A DNA stretch of 64,000 nucleotides from positions 3,479,501 through 3,543,500 of the forward strand of contig NZ_CP060139.1 in the NCBI RefSeq assembly GCF_014524565.1, in the 5' to 3' direction. Source of the stretch: Croceimicrobium hydrocarbonivorans. Its GTDB lineage: Bacteria; Bacteroidota; Bacteroidia; Flavobacteriales; Schleiferiaceae. Every line of letters begins with the position of its first letter. Position 1 is the stretch's first letter. Under the pieces are notes generated by a model, which was not told where the DNA came from, ran no database searches, and saw nothing but the letters and a program-made list of their open reading frames with translations. The position numbers and the translations under genes were made by a program. Below are positions 56,197 through 63,924 of this stretch, piece by piece.

Positions 56197-57084
56197 TTAG
56201 GATTCAATCACCCGGAAATATTCGTGGTGAAAGATTTTGAAATATTCCTCGGCCTTAAAGTCTTCGTAATAGGGAAGGAATTTGCGCAGGTTACGCTTCA
56301 CATTCTCTGGATAGGCGCGTAAATAGGCCATTTTGCTTTGGGCTTGGGCCTGAATATCGATTTGCACATTGGGGGCAGGCATGCCTTCTATGCCGTACAT
56401 TTCATTGGCAATCTCACTGGGATTGGGATAGCCGTATTTTTCCATTTTCGCTTTAAGCCAGGTATCCACGATTTCACGTTCCATATGATCGGTAAAAACG
56501 GATTGGTAGATGCGCTGGCAATCTAATTTTCCAGCCTGAAAGAGATCGAGCACCAATTGACTGATATAAATATGTTCCGGATGTCCATAGCCACCTTTTA
56601 CATTGTCTAAGGTGAAAATGGCGCTGGGCTTAAATTCATTTACCTTTTGGATCAGGGCTGCAGTGATTTTCTCCTGGTAAAATTGTGGGGCGATTTCCGC
56701 ATAGGGAATAGGCAGATAGGGGTTTTGCATAGTATCTAATCCCTTGCGGTAGATTCCATCGTCCACAATGGGCAGATTGCCAGCACAGATAATGGAAGCG
56801 GCATTTTCCTTTTTCCCGGGCATTAAATGGATTTGAAAACTCATTTGCTGGATGGTCCAGCCGGCAGCGGTGAGCTTGGCGATGGTTCCCGACATGGCGC
56901 AATCATCGTCGTCGTGGGCCATAATAATAAGGGCCTTTTTATGGCTTTCTTGGGCCAGAAATTGATCTTCGGGGAATTGCTCGGTTGCGGCAAAGTTTTG
57001 CAGTTCTTCGAGACTGGGCTTGTGAGAGCAAGCGCTAAATAGGAGGGCTAGGCTAAGCAAGCCTAAGGATTGGATGTTTGACAT
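56197..57084 (-). CDS. PIG-L family deacetylase-like lipoprotein with altered motif
   Basis: 295 residues with lipobox LFSAC. The zinc-binding region, usually HPDDE, reads HDDDD (IIMAHDDDDCAMSGTIAKL, His57 to Asp61), while the second His motif GYGHPEHIYIS is kept. PIG-L enzymes deacetylate N-acetylglucosaminyl compounds; the altered motif (Pro to Asp and Glu to Asp) suggests a different substrate or metal site. Family call is firm; activity is not. Confidence 0.85.
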   Translation of the reverse strand: MSNIQSLGLLSLALLFSACSHKPSLEELQNFAATEQFPEDQFLAQESHKKALIIMAHDDDDCAMSGTIAKLTAAGWTIQQMSFQIHLMPGKKENAASIICAGNLPIVDDGIYRKGLDTMQNPYLPIPYAEIAPQFYQEKITAALIQKVNEFKPSAIFTLDNVKGGYGHPEHIYISQLVLDLFQAGKLDCQRIYQSVFTDHMEREIVDTWLKAKMEKYGYPNPSEIANEMYGIEGMPAPNVQIDIQAQAQSKMAYLRAYPENVKRNLRKFLPYYEDFKAEEYFKIFHHEYFRVIES

Positions 57085-57191: not shown

Positions 57192-57800
57192 TTATTTACC
57201 CATGGCGAAGGCCACAATTTCTTCATCCAGGGGATTGGTGCGACTGCCATGATGGGCAATCCACTTTCCATTTTCGTCAATTAAAAATTTATTGAAGTTC
57301 CAGCTCACCTTGGCATCATCCACCCCATTTAAATCTTTGTCGGTAAGCCAATGGTAGATGGGTGCTTGCTCATCGCCTTTCACATCTATCTTATCCATCA
57401 TGGGGAAGCTCACACCATAGTTCTTCTGGCAAAAACTGGCGATCTCCTCATTGGTGCCCGGCTCTTGCTTGCCAAACTGATTGCAAGGGAATCCAATAAT
57501 GGTGAATTTCTCGCCGCCATGCTTTTCGTATAAGGCTTGTAGATCTTCGTATTGCGGGGTGAAACCACATTTACTGGCGGTATTTACAATCAATACTCTT
57601 TTCCCTTCTAATTGGGAAAAACTGAATTGCTCACCATTGAGATCGGTTACGGTAAAATCATAGAAGGAGGGACTTTCAGCTTCTACTTTATTGCTAGCCT
57701 CATTGAATGCCAGTTTTTCACTTTTTAGAGCCGTTTCGCTATTCTGATTACAGCTGGCCAATAGGCCGAGAGCGAGAAAGGACAGGAGAATGCGTTTCAT
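57192..57800 (-). CDS. glutathione peroxidase-family lipoprotein (cysteine form)
   Basis: 202 residues, lipoprotein signal LLASC. The thioredoxin-fold catalytic Cys is in NTASKCGFTPQYEDL, with GFPCNQFGKQEPG and WNFNKFLI motifs; it is the Cys, not selenocysteine, form. It should reduce peroxides using thioredoxin-like donors in the periplasm. A single gene with its own terminator. Confidence 0.95.
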   Translation of the reverse strand: MKRILLSFLALGLLASCNQNSETALKSEKLAFNEASNKVEAESPSFYDFTVTDLNGEQFSFSQLEGKRVLIVNTASKCGFTPQYEDLQALYEKHGGEKFTIIGFPCNQFGKQEPGTNEEIASFCQKNYGVSFPMMDKIDVKGDEQAPIYHWLTDKDLNGVDDAKVSWNFNKFLIDENGKWIAHHGSRTNPLDEEIVAFAMGK

Positions 57801-58002
57801 GGAAATGTGTTTTGGGAAATAACGAGCTAAAGGTAGGAAAGGTTCGGGATCTAGAGAGAGGTATGGAGTAGTTGGTAGCTGGTAGTTTGGGCTAGCTCAA
57901 TAGTGTAAAATACTTTTAAGTGAATAATGGCTAGTCCCTTTGTGAATCATCTGAGGTTTTTTTGAGAAAAGATGGGATTGGGGGTAAGGCTTAAGGGAAA
58001 AT
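57801..58002. other. gene-free stretch at the island boundary
   Basis: Together with the leader that follows, this is a 334-bp stretch without a gene. No RNA, terminator or operator could be recognised; a short imperfect repeat (GTTGGTAGCTGGTAG) occurs near 57870. Composition becomes AT-rich from here on. Confidence 0.5.
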
Positions 58003-58092
58003 TAATTTTATTTTTAGAGAGTGATAGACCTGAATTTAATCGCAATTGAATCTTCTGTTTTTCCTCAGGCTGGATGTTGTTGTTGGATTTGG
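58003..58092 (+). repeat. shared leader element, copy A (before the ATPase gene)
   Basis: About 90 bp that aligns with copies B (60119-60211) and C (62995-63086). The core CCTGAATTTAATCGCAAT at 58029-58046 is identical in all three, followed by a C/T-rich stretch and a GGAT-TTG-TTGTTGG segment. It begins 106 nt before ATG 58135. The upstream 22-bp array seen in B and C is missing here. Copy A is the most diverged. Confidence 0.75.
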
Positions 58093-58134
58093 GATGGTGT
58101 ATATGTAAGATGTACTTCAAGCAAAAAGTAAGAA

Positions 58135-59703
58135 ATGAATGATCAAATAAATAGAGCTATACTTCAACTTCATAAACGTGCTGAAAAGTATACGGATGAA
58201 GAGCTCGTTGAAACCTTTGTTGACGTGGGGCCCCTATTTACTCTTTTACAGAACTCGGATCATCAAATTCTGTATGGACGACGAGGTACAGGTAAGACTC
58301 ACGTTTTAAGCTATTTAAAGAGGATACAAACCAACAAGGGAGACTGTTCCGTTTACCTAGATTTAAGAACAATAGGTTCAACAGGAGGGCTTTATTCAGA
58401 CACTTCTATACCTCTAGCAGAAAGAGCAACTAGACTACTGGTTGATGTGCTCTCAAGTATTCATGATCAGATTCTAGACTTTACATTGTTAAACGATGAA
58501 AATATTGACCTATCTAAAATCGGCCCACCTTTAGAAAGTTTAGCAGATGCTTTTACTGAAGTAAAGATTGAAGGTCCTATTGAAACTGAAGAAACTACAA
58601 CTACCTCAGGTACAGAAAAATCTGGTTTAACAATAGGTGTTAGCCAAACAGGGGTATTAGCTAACATGAATTCCCAAGACGAACAAACGAAAGGCAAAAC
58701 GCAAAGAAAGGCGACATCTGGATTAGAAAAGCATAGAATTCATTTTCCTGCAATACAGCATCATTTTAAAAGTGTTATTGAAAATCTAAATGGTAAAAAA
58801 CTATGGATAATTGCTGATGAATGGGCTGAAATACCATTAGATCTCCAGCCGTTTCTAGGAGATCTTTTAAGGCGTTCGTTATTTCCGTTGTTTGGAGCGT
58901 CTGTTAAAATTGGAGCCATCGAACATAGGTCAAATTTTAAAATCTCAAAAGAAGGTTCAGAGTATATTGGGATTGAAATAGGTGCTGATGTTTCTAGTGT
59001 AAATATGGACGAGTATATGGTCTTTGATAATGATGACAATTTGGCTACAGAGTTTTTCGAAAGATTGATTTTCAAACATATAAATCCTCACTTACCAGAA
59101 GCGATTAAATTTAATTCATCATCCCAATTATTAAACGCAGCATTTACACAGAAAGGGGCTTTCACTGAATTTGTAAGAGCAACCGAAGGAGTTCCAAGGG
59201 ATGCTATCAACATCCTTTCACAAGCTGCACTTAAAGCAAGGAATGAAAAAATTTCATTGGTAAACCTAAGGGCAGCTGCAAGAGTGTGGTATACTAGGGA
59301 TAAAGAAAAATCAGTTAGTTCAAAAGAAAACGCACTGACACTTCTTCGTTGGATAATCGATGAAGTATTGGGTAATAGAAACGCACGAGCCTTTTTACTT
59401 CAAACTGACGTAAAGAATTCATTGATTGATTTTCTATACGATTCAAGGGTTATTCATCTTATCAAACAGAGCATAGCTGGTCAAGATAAACCGGGGATTC
59501 GCTATAATGTGTACAGTATTGATTATGGATGCTATGTGGATCTAATAAATACTAACAGAGCTCCAAAAGGTCTATTTCAAGCTGAAACTGATGAGGGTAT
59601 TGAGTTTATTCAAGTCCCCATGAATGATTATAGAGCAATCAGACGGGCTATTCTTGATTTAGAAGAATTCAAAAAAAGCACGAAAACACAACAACTTATC
59701 TAA
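58135..59703 (+). CDS. orphan AAA+ ATPase (ORC/CDC6-like)
   Basis: 522 residues, no signal or membrane segment. Walker A is YGRRGTGKTH (residues 47-56) and Walker B is LWIIADEW (223-230). The segment VYLDLRTIGSTGGLYSDTS with AERATRLLVDVLSSIHDQ matches what is annotated as ORC-CDC6 family AAA ATPase in other bacteria. A low-complexity insert rich in Thr/Ser/Glu (about 148-195) separates the two motifs, and a helical C-terminal half may hold a winged helix. No partner nuclease is adjacent in an operon. Lower GC than core genes. Possibly defence-related, which is inference from the island context. Confidence 0.7.
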   Translation: MNDQINRAILQLHKRAEKYTDEELVETFVDVGPLFTLLQNSDHQILYGRRGTGKTHVLSYLKRIQTNKGDCSVYLDLRTIGSTGGLYSDTSIPLAERATRLLVDVLSSIHDQILDFTLLNDENIDLSKIGPPLESLADAFTEVKIEGPIETEETTTTSGTEKSGLTIGVSQTGVLANMNSQDEQTKGKTQRKATSGLEKHRIHFPAIQHHFKSVIENLNGKKLWIIADEWAEIPLDLQPFLGDLLRRSLFPLFGASVKIGAIEHRSNFKISKEGSEYIGIEIGADVSSVNMDEYMVFDNDDNLATEFFERLIFKHINPHLPEAIKFNSSSQLLNAAFTQKGAFTEFVRATEGVPRDAINILSQAALKARNEKISLVNLRAAARVWYTRDKEKSVSSKENALTLLRWIIDEVLGNRNARAFLLQTDVKNSLIDFLYDSRVIHLIKQSIAGQDKPGIRYNVYSIDYGCYVDLINTNRAPKGLFQAETDEGIEFIQVPMNDYRAIRRAILDLEEFKKSTKTQQLI

Positions 59704-59717
59704 TACATAACTTCCCG

Positions 59718-59732
59718 TATATGCAGCATATA
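59718..59732. other. 15-bp perfect dyad just after the ATPase gene
   Basis: TATATGC-A-GCATATA, two 7-bp arms around one base, 15 nt past the ATPase stop. Too tight to form a terminator hairpin; more like a protein-binding dyad or a recombination remnant. Confidence 0.35.
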
Positions 59733-59838
59733 TAGAATGTTTTTAATGCTGTAAAAAACTCGAAGCCATGCCTGCGCCTATCACATTAAAATCAAAAGCC
59801 CCCTTAGCCCAGAAATGAAGCGGAAGTTCTTTTTTGAC

Positions 59839-59948
59839 TATGCTGATCTTCGCTCCCAAACATGCTGATGTTTCGACTCAAACATGCTGATGTTTGCCTT
59901 CATTCATGCGGATGTTTGGATAAAGACATAAGCATGTTTTTAATGAAT
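59839..59948. repeat. five 22-bp periodic units, copy B
   Basis: Exactly five consecutive 22-bp units (59839, 59861, 59883, 59905, 59927), each starting with a variant of CATGCTGATGTTT followed by 9 variable bases. Unit junctions make palindromes, the best being CAAACATGCTGATGTTTG at 59879-59896 (7-bp arms, GCTG centre). The period is not a multiple of three, so this is not a coding repeat. Confidence 0.85.
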
Positions 59949-60118
59949 GTCTCGAATCTAGGCTTTTGCTTGTCTGGAAGAGGCGGGGAAGCTTGTTTTA
60001 GGCGGCTTCCAAGCTGGAGATGGATGGCCAATATTCATTTATTGAATGCAGCAAGGAACTGGTGATTGAGGGCCTCGGTCAGGCTTATTAGAATTAAGCT
60101 GGGAAAGAAATGGGATTA

Positions 60119-60211
60119 ATTGTAATTTTAGGGGAGCTAAAACCTGAATTTAATCGCAATCTAGAATCTGCTTTTTTCTTAGATAGGATCTTGTTGTTGC
60201 TCAGTATGGGT
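60119..60211 (+). repeat. shared leader element, copy B (before the nuclease-like gene)
   Basis: Contains the identical 18-nt core at 60143-60160, 97 nt before ATG 60240, preceded by TAATTTTAGGGGAGCTAAAA, which is also in copy C. Its 3' end merges into the two-box promoter at 60191-60220. Confidence 0.8.
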
Positions 60212-60220
60212 TTAATTTTG
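60191..60220 (+). promoter_or_regulatory. two-box promoter: TTG - 19 nt - TAATTTTG
   Basis: TTG at 60191-60193 and a perfect TAATTTTG at 60213-60220, exactly 19 nt apart, the ideal Bacteroidota arrangement. The transcript would start about 60225 with a ~15-nt leader to ATG 60240. The TTG lies inside the shared leader element. Confidence 0.7.
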
Positions 60221-60239
60221 ATAAGTTAAGTGCAACCAA

Positions 60240-61202
60240 ATGAAATTATATCAAGACTTATCCCTTGTAACAGACAGTGCATACAATCTTGCAAGTATTA
60301 TAAACGATGGAAAATATGACAATATTCTGTATTATGAATTTCATGAAAAAGTTGAGGCTACAAAAATCATTAACTGCTTAGAAGGATTAGAATCATTTAC
60401 TGCGAGATCAATTAATTATTATAAAATATTCAATTCTTACGGCATTGTTGATGAGTTCCCCGCAATTATTCATATAGCTGTGAAATTAGCAGACGAGTGG
60501 TTTATAGCTAGTGATTGTGGTTCTAACTATTATCTTGGTTACGGGCCAAGTGGAATCTTGAAATTAAGAGAAGCCTGTGCTAAAAAAAATGTAATGGGCA
60601 TTGTTTCAGAATGCGATTTTGATAAATGGTTGACTTACAAATTTGGGAAAGGGAAGAAATACTCAGAAAACCTCAATAATAATAAAGACCTAATTCAGTT
60701 TCAAAAGCTTATTAAGTCCCTTCAACATCTTACTGCTGAGATGCAAAGAAAACCTAGTGAGTATCAAAATCTTCAAGAAGAGAATCTCCGTGATAAAATG
60801 CTAACGCCTTTGAATGTTGTCTTTAAAGGACGTATCAATGCTGAAGCAAAAAATAATAAGGGTAAAACAGACATATTACTTAGAACGAAAGACGGTCTAA
60901 ATGAATATATTTTTGAATTAAAAGTATGGGGTGGAATTCGGACTCTAAAGAAGGCTATTGATCAATTGCAAGGTTATTTGAGTTGGCATAATAAATATTC
61001 AGGAATTGTGATGTTTTGCTACAATTCAGATTTCACATCAGTTTTAAATAAGTCAGAACAGTTCTTGAAGGACAATTATAGCTTCGAAAAAAGAGGAAAA
61101 CTTATCGAAAATGAATTTCGCTTTCGGCTTGTACATCCAACAGATAGATCCAAAACGATTGAATTACATTTGATATTTATAAATCTTAAAACGACCAAGT
61201 AA
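60240..61202 (+). CDS. protein with C-terminal PD-(D/E)XK nuclease-like domain
   Basis: 320 residues, soluble. The C-terminal third carries the core of a PD-(D/E)XK nuclease: Asp211 in KGKTDILLRT, then Glu226-X-Lys228 in YIFELKVW, and a following helix with AIDQLQGYLSWH (Gln242/244), as in Mrr/restriction-type folds; an upstream Glu in LQEENLRDKM could complete the site. The N-terminal ~170 residues are unrecognised. AT-rich, lone gene under the shared leader. A role in DNA cleavage, possibly anti-phage, is inferred from the motif and context only. Confidence 0.65.
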   Translation: MKLYQDLSLVTDSAYNLASIINDGKYDNILYYEFHEKVEATKIINCLEGLESFTARSINYYKIFNSYGIVDEFPAIIHIAVKLADEWFIASDCGSNYYLGYGPSGILKLREACAKKNVMGIVSECDFDKWLTYKFGKGKKYSENLNNNKDLIQFQKLIKSLQHLTAEMQRKPSEYQNLQEENLRDKMLTPLNVVFKGRINAEAKNNKGKTDILLRTKDGLNEYIFELKVWGGIRTLKKAIDQLQGYLSWHNKYSGIVMFCYNSDFTSVLNKSEQFLKDNYSFEKRGKLIENEFRFRLVHPTDRSKTIELHLIFINLKTTK

Positions 61203-61355
61203 TAAAGGTGGAAGTTACAAAGCACATAGCTTATAGCTACTAAATTGATACCACCAAGCATGCCTTCCGATAAGATAGACATTCGCTTCTTTGCCCACCT
61301 TGGTTTCTATGGACCTGCCTTCGCTTCAAAGTATATCAGAAGCCAGGAATGTACT

Positions 61356-61363
61356 TAACTTTG
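61356..61363 (+). promoter_or_regulatory. -7 promoter box (TAACTTTG) for the small lipoprotein gene
   Basis: Perfect TAnnTTTG match, 56 nt before ATG 61420. No -33 TTG at standard spacing. The rest of the 217-bp spacer 61203-61419 shows nothing recognisable. Confidence 0.4.
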
Positions 61364-61419
61364 ATAAGCAAGTTTAACCGTTATAAGCCATTTGCAAACC
61401 CTTGTCCTCAACTCGAAAA

Positions 61420-61842
61420 ATGAAATTCCTGACCATCATCCTATTGCTTCTTACTTGTAAATGGGTCGACATACAGCCCACAGACCTCGAAGTTAAATAC
61501 GTCGAAGGCGCAATGATGGGCGATTTTGAAAAACTGGAATTTACCGGCATTTGTGGTGGGACGGAAGCAATTGAAGCTCATTTTGACCAAATCCAGTATT
61601 GCAAGAAACTCGACCAGCTAAAACTAAAAGGTAGGATTACAAGCAATTATGGTGAAGCCTATCCCTACATGAGCTTTGTTACAGGAAAGGAACATCGGAA
61701 CAAAATATTTCGCAATTCTGAAATTTTGACTTCCGATTCCACCGGAACTTTTGATTTAAGCATCGACTATAAAAAGGGAGATGAGCTTTTCATTTATGGA
61801 GTGGGAACCTATATTTTGAGGACCAGAATAATGGAAAAATAA
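61420..61842 (+). CDS. small hypothetical lipoprotein
   Basis: 140 residues beginning MKFLTIILLLLTCKW, with a short lipoprotein signal (LLTC). ATG 61420 is preferred to TTG-type upstream codons of the longer frame. The mature part has a few strand-like segments (LKLKGRITSNYGEAYPYMSF; TFDLSIDYKKGDELFIYG) and resembles small carboxypeptidase-regulatory-like or transthyretin-like folds only vaguely. Unknown function. Not preceded by the shared leader. Confidence 0.5.
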   Translation: MKFLTIILLLLTCKWVDIQPTDLEVKYVEGAMMGDFEKLEFTGICGGTEAIEAHFDQIQYCKKLDQLKLKGRITSNYGEAYPYMSFVTGKEHRNKIFRNSEILTSDSTGTFDLSIDYKKGDELFIYGVGTYILRTRIMEK

Positions 61843-61991
61843 AAGCGGACTTCGCACCTTCAGTGAGTTTATGGATCTCCTCATTTCAAGTTAAGATGTT
61901 TGAAAGATGTAAATTGGAATACCCTATCCAAAAAGGTAATAGTAAGTACTCCGGCTTAGACATTAAACACTAACTGCTTTAGCTAATTGAC

Positions 61992-62435
61992 ATGAATCCT
62001 AAACTCAAAATAGTCTTTGGAGTACTATTGATCGCTGGCCTTTCCTCATTCATTAGATCAGAATCAAAGCCAATTCCTGAAAGGGAAAGGTTTTATACCA
62101 ACGAATTACAGAATGGCGATTCATTAGTAATAATTAGTTCTTTTTCGGGATGTTTTTCTGAAAGCGGTTTTACACTTGAAATTTTCATGGAATCAGATCA
62201 GATTCACCTTTCCTATCAGGAAGGTGGCAAGTCTGAACTAATAAGCAAAACGCTTCCGCTTACCTTTAAAAAGGAACTTTCTGATTTTGAGTTAAGGACA
62301 GTTCCAAATATGGCCTATGGCATAGGAACTAGCTGTAAGATGATCTTCAAATTTAATAATGAACGATTCGATACCATCAGGGAGTGCCCTCAAGAGAAAT
62401 ACTATTACAGGCTTCTAGAAAGAATAAAAAACTAG
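61992..62435 (+). CDS. small hypothetical exported protein
   Basis: 147 residues with signal-like MNPKLKIVFGVLLIAGLSSFIRSES. It has three Cys residues (SGCFSES, GTSCKMIF, IRECPQEK) and strand-like segments; no family recognised. It lies 149 bp behind the other small exported protein, and may form a pair with it. No shared leader upstream. Confidence 0.5.
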   Translation: MNPKLKIVFGVLLIAGLSSFIRSESKPIPERERFYTNELQNGDSLVIISSFSGCFSESGFTLEIFMESDQIHLSYQEGGKSELISKTLPLTFKKELSDFELRTVPNMAYGIGTSCKMIFKFNNERFDTIRECPQEKYYYRLLERIKN

Positions 62436-62699
62436 TTAGGAGGCTAGGCTTTTGGAGGGTGAATGGACTAGCTGAAAGCGGGGCTTACGGAGAGCAACCA
62501 GGCTTGGCTTTGGTGGGCGAAAAGCTGCTTCGAATTGGAAATCAGCACAGCTAAACCGCCACAATCCTTATCGGTAGCTATTCACCTTGTAGCTAAAAAA
62601 GTCCCTTGGACTCTAAAAGCGCGTTAACCTATATTGGCATCTAGATCTAAATTCCCCGCCTTTTTATCAATAAGATCAGGATCATAAATCCCTAAGCGA
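62436..62699. other. spacer before repeat copy C, no gene
   Basis: Part of a 679-bp stretch without a gene (62436-63114). No RNA gene, terminator or protein remnant could be recognised in these 264 bp. Confidence 0.5.
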
Positions 62700-62736
62700 C
62701 CTTACCAAGAAAAAGAAGCGGAGGTTCTTTTTTGAC

Positions 62737-62846
62737 TATGCTGATCTTCGCTCCCAAATATGCTGATGATTTGACTCAAACATGCTGATGGTTGCCTTCA
62801 TTCATGCTGATGTTTGGATTAAAACATAAGTATGTTTTTAATGAAT
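62737..62846. repeat. five 22-bp periodic units, copy C
   Basis: Units start at 62737, 62759, 62781, 62803 and 62825; same number, order and variable 9-mers as copy B with a handful of substitutions (for example CATGCTGATGGTT in unit 3). The matched order shows the whole array was copied as one block. Confidence 0.85.
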
Positions 62847-62994
62847 GTCTCGATTCTAGGCTTTTGCTTAGCCGGAGATGGATGGCCAATATTCATTTAT
62901 TGAATGCAGCAAGGAACTGGCGATTGAAGGCCTCGGTTTGGCTTTATAAGGATATTTTGCTTTTTGAGGCCGTGGAATGTGATGGGATAAAAAT

Positions 62995-63086
62995 GTAATT
63001 TTAGGGGAGCTAAAACCTGAATTTAATCGCAATCTAGAAGCTGCATTTTTCTGAGCTGGATCTTAGTATTGCTGAGCTTGGGTTTT
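62995..63086 (+). repeat. shared leader element, copy C (before the DUF5984-like gene)
   Basis: Identical 18-nt core at 63016-63033, 99 nt before ATG 63115, with the same flanks as copy B (TAATTTTAGGGGAGCTAAAA before it; GGATCTT-GTATTGCTGAGC-type sequence after). The -7 box of copy B is not conserved here. Confidence 0.8.
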
Positions 63087-63114
63087 GGCGTGTAATCCAT
63101 GGTCCTCAGTAGAA

Positions 63115-63924
63115 ATGATAAACTTCAAATTAAAAGATACAAAAAGCTATAAGCCAGTGGGGTCATCTACCGGCTTAAGCATGAGTTGGTATTGGCTTAC
63201 TGAGGGTGATTTGTGGATTGATTTAGGAGATTCAAGCTTGTATGAATATTCGCCTAAGGCACAAGAGTATTTCGGGGGCTTGAAATCTCAATACAATGAA
63301 TATCAAATCATTCGATTTATTGAAGATTTCACCGCATTGTTTGAAGTTATTAGTGAATCAATTCCCAATGATATTTATCGGTTAGCAGAGAACTCCGCGA
63401 AATTCCTACAGGATGCTCAAAAATGGTTGGATTTAAATGATGCTGAGGAAGACCAGCAAGATGATTTCTATTTTGAGAAATATGACAAATTAATTTCTTG
63501 GATAAATAGGAGGAGTTTGGATTCCGGTCATTTAGTTGGAGGTCCTAAGCTCTCATTCTTTAGAAATAAAGACAAAATAAGAGTCACTTGGCAAGCAGAT
63601 TATAAGCTTGAAAATGGAATTGACCTGTGGACGGCTGGAGAGGGGAGCATCGAATTTTCTTATTCGGAATTTATAAATGATGTTAAAGATTTTGGAGATA
63701 GATTCTTTAAACAAATGCAAGAACAGGTCGACTTAGCAGTTGAAAAGGAATGGAATGGCATTCAGATCGATAAGCAAAGATTGTTGGCTGAGCATAGTGA
63801 AAGAGAAATTGATTTTTGGAAACAGTTCAAGCTATTAAAAGGAAAGTCACCATCAGAAACAAAGTGGGAACTTATACGAGAACTGAAATCTCAAATGGAT
63901 GAGGAAATAAAAAGGAAAGCCTAA
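63115..63924 (+). CDS. DUF5984-like hypothetical protein
   Basis: 269 residues, soluble and acidic. The N-terminus MINFKLKDTKSYKPVG followed by SMSWYWLTEGDLWIDLGDSSLYEYS resembles the DUF5984 family (SWF/Y-LT-G-W pattern), and the middle contains a helical stretch and a YKLENGIDLWTAGEGSIEFSY block. Function unknown for the family. The longer frame from TTG 63085 is rejected in favour of ATG 63115, which keeps the same distance to the shared leader as in the nuclease-like gene. AT-rich, lone gene. The last 76 bp of the window after it show nothing recognisable. Confidence 0.6.
   Translation: MINFKLKDTKSYKPVGSSTGLSMSWYWLTEGDLWIDLGDSSLYEYSPKAQEYFGGLKSQYNEYQIIRFIEDFTALFEVISESIPNDIYRLAENSAKFLQDAQKWLDLNDAEEDQQDDFYFEKYDKLISWINRRSLDSGHLVGGPKLSFFRNKDKIRVTWQADYKLENGIDLWTAGEGSIEFSYSEFINDVKDFGDRFFKQMQEQVDLAVEKEWNGIQIDKQRLLAEHSEREIDFWKQFKLLKGKSPSETKWELIRELKSQMDEEIKRKA

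Follow-up and report, generated by a model that had tools for sequence, protein, structure and literature searches.

The 64,000-nucleotide stretch of the Croceimicrobium hydrocarbonivorans genome analysed here (hereafter the window) contains a variable locus in which three unrelated genes each follow the same conserved leader. We interpret these leaders as orphan platforms of the attI type, belonging to an integron-like system with its cassettes, and on sequence comparison we put the probability of this reading at about 0.86. It agrees with the initial annotation of this DNA, which had proposed gene cassettes inserted behind a shared site that serves expression or recombination; the proposal is now supported by dispersed leaders with unrelated genes behind them, by gene exchange with a sister species, and by attC sites. 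The genus comparison covered seven genomes, the window's own (G000; 4.04 Mb, one contig) and six genus-mates (G001–G006), of which G001 is the sister species; the class-wide sample comprised 295 genomes.

An 18-nt core, ACCTGAATTTAATCGCAAT, occurs without mismatch at positions 58028, 60142 and 63015, always on the forward strand and 106, 97 and 99 nt before an ATG, as first described. In 100 dinucleotide-shuffled versions of the window, matches with up to three mismatches average 0.03 and never reach three, which places the observation far beyond chance. The sequence common to the three copies spans about 65–110 nt. Leader 1 (57998..58134, + strand; 76.9 bits in the leader model, with an ortholog in G001) precedes a 522-residue ORC-CDC6-like ATPase (58135..59703, +; PF24389, E 8.7e-15), at whose position G001 has an unrelated gene. 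Leader 2 (60109..60239, +; 83.5 bits) precedes a 320-residue PD-(D/E)XK-like nuclease (60240..61202, +; PDDEXK_9, E 1.6e-4, below cut-off), which matches the PADLOC candidate defence family PDC-S54 (E 1.5e-42); a viral-contig search with this protein confirmed no relative. Leader 3 (62982..63114, +; 80 bits) precedes a 269-residue DUF5984 protein (63115..63924, +; PF19446, E 1.6e-67). The three genes are indeed mutually dissimilar, sharing no Pfam family and no blastp similarity at E ≤ 0.01, the threshold applied to all comparisons of first genes. The lower GC content noted for the locus is likewise borne out, falling from about 0.45 to 0.35–0.40 there.

The three leaders had been described as the limit of what these units share. 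This is true of the set as a whole, but copies 2 and 3 also share an upstream block of about 300 bp (59787–60086 versus 62685–62944, 87% identical), for a total of about 400 bp (192 + 91 nt at 87% and 65 nt at 94%), and a fourth copy of the leader lies elsewhere. We refer to the block as the resident R segment. Its first copy (59787..60086, +), composed of repeats D1 and D3, is, along with leader 2, 82% identical to G001; the second (62641..62944, +) includes the repeat at 62685–62944 and begins with about 40 nt in common with G001 (by eye). The D1 part (59787–59978) contains repeated ATGCTGATGTTT palindromes, and D1-related pieces are scattered both in the own genome (G000:C1 3321106, 3074547 and 3679123) and in genus-mates.

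A leader confined to the three window positions, or standing before the same genes in all relatives, had been named as incompatible with cassettes; the genome searches gave neither. The own genome has four core copies; the fourth, which carries one mismatch, lies at a distance of 3.2 Mb in contig coordinates (some 0.8 Mb should the contig be circular) and precedes another set of small genes. Three more places at three mismatches look like chance, the reversed control giving one, and none of 98 relatives has the core at up to one mismatch. With a model of six leader sequences, diverged copies were recovered in G003 and a third copy in G001. The twelve-leader model, which was trained on 12 of the copies it scores, then yielded 13 strong copies at 66.6–94.1 bits, four in the own genome and the remainder in two of the six genus-mates (three in G001, six in G003), with the next best score across 39 genomes at 22.2 bits. 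No pair among the 13 first genes behind these copies is similar at E ≤ 0.01. Weak R2 matches were dropped, namely two in G002 and that at G000:2292420 (all within reading frames) as well as those in G022 (overlapping a gene start), and a match at G006:C38 was taken by eye as chance.

Comparison of orthologous loci reveals mostly different genes behind orthologous leaders and between syntenic flanks. In G001 the window locus retains its left flank (92–97% identical; 92% over the 2730 nt up to leader 1), its right flank (90%) and leaders 1 and 2 in place. Its interior has one gene pair 95% identical to the window, encoding a lipoprotein-like protein of 140 residues (61420..61842, +; segment 94.9% identical) and a protein of 147 residues (61992..62435, +), while the remaining genes differ. 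The left border of the variable locus is a conserved glutathione-peroxidase-like gene (57192..57800, − strand; named by eye). For the neighbouring gene, which encodes a 295-residue protein (56197–57084), G000 and G001 alone among the seven genus genomes have a match at E ≤ 1e-40, and therefore no empty version of the window locus is visible.

Two further own loci, B (stretch L152, with L151 and L152 joined) and C (stretch L121), were compared with G001 in the same way. Both have conserved flanks (pieces 86–94% identical), a mostly different interior and tandem leader pairs. In both species locus B reads flank, leader, genes, R, leader, genes, R, flank, and its leader homology stops 0, 0, 1 and 13 nt past AACAAGTTG in four alignments. 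Directly 5' of a locus B leader are tandem repeats of about 133 nt, 85–89% identical (L151+L152 18324–18944; G000 about 718323–718943). Behind the two leaders of locus C (L121 4068–9797) are genes for a large PHP/ATPase-like protein, several small TIR-like proteins and a caspase-like protein, a set resembling defence genes (all by eye). An IS3-like transposase pair (by eye) occurs within an accessory region behind a G001 leader (L086 11022–12169, G001:C21).

The genes behind the leaders are associated with attC sites. At locus B of G001, three palindromes of 120–121 nt with the form AACA...ACCG^TT lie behind genes and stop within a few nucleotides of the next cassette or of the R start, and at own locus C the end of one palindrome is 4 nt into R. 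A classical attC within the leader itself was rejected, as no palindrome was seen there. A palindrome scanner found dense attC arrays in G003, G004 and G005; in one G003 array the gene for a 282-residue protein occurs twice, in nearly identical form (L209 7527–8375 and 10610–11458). An alignment of 25 of the 34 sites listed for these genomes, with near-duplicates removed by hand, has 16 pairs with 94.8% of cells paired, a figure partly built in by a scanner that chose sites for arm complementarity. Covariation is 0.669, versus 0.166 for shuffled alignments and no more than 0.084 for slid ones. Two other measures, double changes within pairs and the types of pair, are not above the shuffles (206 and 477 of 500). 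In view of the scanner's selection of complementary arms, independent matches in G000 and G001 weigh more. The attC model built from this alignment was run on 342 kb of these two genomes, which had no part in its training, and gave 15 sites at E < 1e-3, every one on the cassette strand: eight in L152, three in L120, two in L156 (one of them preceding a recombinase remnant in G001) and one each in L121 and L086. Sites with attC character also lie behind five of the six G003 leaders, the nearest 462–819 nt past the core. Thus attC sites (AAC...GTT, a folded stem, at cassette 3' ends) are present in relatives and at other own loci, and the window itself has relics only.

One relic, which we regard as clear from its sequence, is the 3' part of a decayed attC behind the shared gene pair (62494..62565, +), 82–86% identical to attC sites at locus B of the own genome (E 1e-12). 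The other, probably also an attC in decay, separates the nuclease gene from the gene after it (61203..61407, +; 5' arm 61217–61237, 3' arm 61376–61407). Its arms match array attC sites in L211 weakly (E 0.046 and 0.013; 3' arm E 0.008), and no such arm matches were found in a 238-kb control. The G001 copy of this second relic is better kept, with E 1.6e-13 to locus B of G000 and 17.6 bits (E 0.18) in the attC model. The best attC-model match in the window has 13.6 bits (E 1.2), and the relic search gave no match at E ≤ 0.02 in positions 1–57000. Stretch L034, which lies beyond the window (E 2e-6), and the DNA that follows the fourth leader (E 0.001) may hold relics as well.

Mismatches in the attC stems favour folding of the bottom strand. 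The 25 aligned stems contain 41 A.C mismatches versus 3 G.T, an A.C mismatch being a G.T wobble on the complementary strand, and one stem position is A.C in 23 of the 25. When 51 attC sites were folded, the bottom strand was the stabler in 37, the top strand in 13, and the two were equal in one; the sites are interrelated, making the p values of the strand tests too small.

A candidate enzyme for this system is a tyrosine recombinase of 366–382 residues encoded in G003, G004, G005 and G006. An insertion-type site lies directly 3' of its gene, in the same reading direction, in all four genus-mates (sites by eye), and the first attC follows about 0.5 kb (G003), 3.3 kb (G004) or 0.7 kb (G005) past the recombinase; in G006 the contig ends. 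By position, genus-mates thus have an attI linked to a recombinase, and the own genome has unlinked leaders only. G003 combines one such recombinase with six leaders at five loci. The initial annotation had suggested that the integrase acts in trans or lies outside the window: an integron-like recombinase does occur elsewhere in the G003 genome, but none was found in the own genome. No intact copy was found in G000 or G001, and G001 retains a broken remnant with an attI-like site, followed by accessory genes and an attC. The first genes behind this remnant (L156 10526–12405, G001:C69) are an ATPase and HNH-like pair (by eye), reminiscent of Septu. In a leader-model search of 90 kb of recombinase loci, the two best matches are the sites behind the G005 recombinase (E 0.0029) and the G001 remnant (E 0.00044).

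All four recombinases score above cut-off for NF040815 (site-specific tyrosine recombinase/integron integrase), and TIGR02249 gave nothing above cut-off in the seven genus genomes. XerC-like and XerA structures align to the recombinase in one piece, whereas IntI4 (2a3v) aligns in two, with chain residues 182–245 opposite query residues 277–297. The spacing from KGxKDR to HxLRH is 64–69 in all recombinases in which both motifs were found (33 of 34), versus 107 in 2a3v (by eye). The insert of IntI (I2/patch) is accordingly absent from this recombinase. A recombinase profile at E ≤ 1e-70 matches 144 of the 295 class genomes and not the own genome; 144 is an upper bound, some matches starting near profile position 100 and covering only the part common with Xer. 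Among the 30 best class loci, 14 have an attC (E < 0.005) within 1.5 kb, and in all 14 it lies 3' of the recombinase gene and on its strand.

Several leader types share one short end, roughly GGATAAAAACAAG^TTG, which terminates at least three of them (A, B and C); these stand in tandem, all reading one way, and each copy is followed by a different gene (by eye). At the loci resolved best, genes that follow this end terminate in folded attC sites of matching orientation, as expected of an insertion point of the integron type. In the seven genus genomes GGATANNAACAAGTTG at up to one mismatch has 23 matches, several of which look coding, versus 3 for the reversed pattern, and no inverted partner end was seen beside the motif (by eye). 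The end is imperfect in the window itself: leader 2 has the putative crossover at 60225^60226, ATAAG^TTAAGTGCAA, and is the only copy with an intact TT, the crossover having decayed near 58109/58110 in leader 1 and near 63099 in leader 3 (all by eye). A scan of the collection gave five exact matches to the end motif, two of them outside Bacteroidota. The motif also occurs in apparently intergenic DNA of a Galbibacter and a Flavobacterium genome (L167 84–106 and L170 3550–3572).

Leader families, the gene differences downstream of orthologous leaders, the attC sites that follow leaders, the order recombinase, site, array, and the lack of a recombinase match in the own genome are all directly visible in the sequences compared. 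In the model that we propose, the leader 3' end would be the crossover site, with the consensus A-A-C-A-A-G^T-T-R, and the rest of the leader would be conserved resident DNA, probably bearing a promoter. A cassette would consist of a gene plus a terminal attC hairpin, and the tyrosine recombinase would catalyse the joining of cassettes between ..AACAAG and TT..., its targets being the linked attI and, in trans, the dispersed attI-like leaders. The resident R segment would resume beyond the inserted cassettes, and duplication of R plus leader may have been the route by which several platforms arose in one locus. Loss of the recombinase in the window's lineage would have left the window locus as decaying platforms with relic attC sites. 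Because the linked sites show no clear similarity to the upstream part of the leader, descent of the leaders from attI copies is likely rather than proven; it is possible that the leaders are instead independent capture sites that were turned into platforms.

Several observations weigh against this interpretation, in addition to the partial circularity of the attC pairing figure. The crossover dinucleotide is altered in two of the three window leaders (by eye on the alignment). The window attC sites are relics only; in the attC model the one behind the nuclease gene has 9.3 bits (E 0.2 in 7 kb) and is outscored by a likely chance match on the other strand (11.6 bits). No attC follows at E < 1e-3 behind leader b of L082, the fourth leader of G000, the second one at locus C or the two G001 orthologs of window leaders; at the locus of these orthologs one site has E 0.18. 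The leader model fits two of the five recombinase-linked sites of the genus, with low scores mostly from the 3' end, and matches none of the 30 class recombinase loci, 16 of which have no attC within 1.5 kb at E < 0.005. Across the 295 class genomes the extended end motif has 18 matches versus 13 for controls (summed), no clear excess.

The best surviving alternative is that the cassettes were inserted off target, at chance attG-like sites, by an integrase from elsewhere rather than by a system of the lineage's own. The own genome, in which no such recombinase was found, would fit this, and off-target insertion is one proposed origin of clusters of attC sites lacking integron integrases (CALIN) (PMC8618304, excerpt). 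We consider it unlikely: the leaders form long conserved families rather than chance sites, and genus-mates encode the recombinase together with closely similar attC sites.

Slightly less probable still is a conserved promoter or operator of an accessory-gene regulon, with genes swapped by homologous recombination through the leader and R arms. The leaders are conserved over 65–130 nt, more than a crossover site needs, the blocks of R plus leader are homologous between species, and leader 2 contains a TTG-N19-TAATTTTG-like stretch that matches the promoter consensus of Bacteroidota (by eye). Such a regulon would leave unexplained the attC sites behind leaders, the attC ends at R, the single short end across different leader types, and the presence of such an end directly behind the recombinase gene; a promoter may act in addition.

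Simple segmental duplication of a promoter-bearing block within one locus, the rival named in the initial annotation, would account for the 400 bp or so shared by copies 2 and 3 and for the paired tandem leaders of loci B and C. The block of about 300 bp plus leader has been duplicated within the window locus, but copies are also distant in the genome and present in other species, dispersed before 13 mutually unrelated first genes. As a full account duplication is largely refuted and very improbable, and it is likely a part of the history as the means of platform multiplication; both it and a promoter role may operate alongside the platform interpretation, so that the probabilities of these readings overlap. 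That the leader is a structured RNA (a riboswitch or noncoding RNA) or a transposon end can practically be dismissed: its length and its position before start codons are conserved, but an Rfam scan gave no match on the leaders at E ≤ 1, the consensus fold has 6 pairs (none with compensatory changes) for six leaders and 0 for twelve, so that the conserved secondary structure of an RNA leader or riboswitch is lacking, and no inverted partner end was seen (by eye).

Among known systems, the orphan attI-type platforms and their arrays are most readily compared with chromosomal integrons, with which they share tandem genes in one direction, many ending in a long imperfect palindrome AAC...GTT, an insertion-type site beside a tyrosine recombinase, and a favoured bottom-strand fold. 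They differ in that about 43 residues of IntI4 have no counterpart in the recombinase, that 90–110 residues stand before the first matched domain of the recombinase, that strand bias comes from A.C mismatches rather than the extrahelical bases of integrons (PMC7790495, excerpt), and that each genome has several dispersed attI-like platforms. The Treponema-type integron (PMC3607928, excerpt) belongs to different bacteria, and its IntI insert is missing from the recombinase described here. Locus B of the own genome qualifies as a CALIN, with eight attC sites in L152 and no such recombinase found in the genome, as judged by the attC model built here and not that of IntegronFinder, the window locus having only relics; unlike CALINs, these clusters begin with a conserved attI-like leader. 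Like attG sites and delta-attI cassettes (PMC12901181, excerpt), the system would involve insertion away from an integrase-linked attI and attI pieces in arrays, but here whole leaders of about 65–240 nt, of several types, are repeated and dispersed. On sequence grounds it is a variant that appears to work like an integron yet falls outside the strict definition of IntI, and not a canonical member of the family.

Integrons have been listed for Bacteroidota (PMC8618304, excerpt), and the Bacteroidetes/Chlorobi group is on record as having intI genes (PMC2426708, excerpt); according to the excerpt of a 2022 survey (PMC9024848), Bacteroidetes proper had earlier yielded nothing beyond In0, to which a single complete integron was then added, that of Salinibacter ruber. 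Among the literature matches listed, nothing concerned dispersed attI platforms or an integron without the insert. Taken jointly, the observations tentatively suggest, at somewhat less than even odds, a widespread second kind of integron that dispenses with the I2 domain, which is regarded as essential. It would carry out single-stranded capture with a Xer-like recombinase bearing its own N-terminal extension, with the strand marked by G.T wobbles rather than extrahelical bases, and one enzyme would serve many scattered attI platforms, which would outlast it and display exchangeable, often defence-like genes. If the recombinase does recombine these sites, screens that require the insert may miss integrons in these bacteria, and the origin of single-strand cassette capture would become directly testable.

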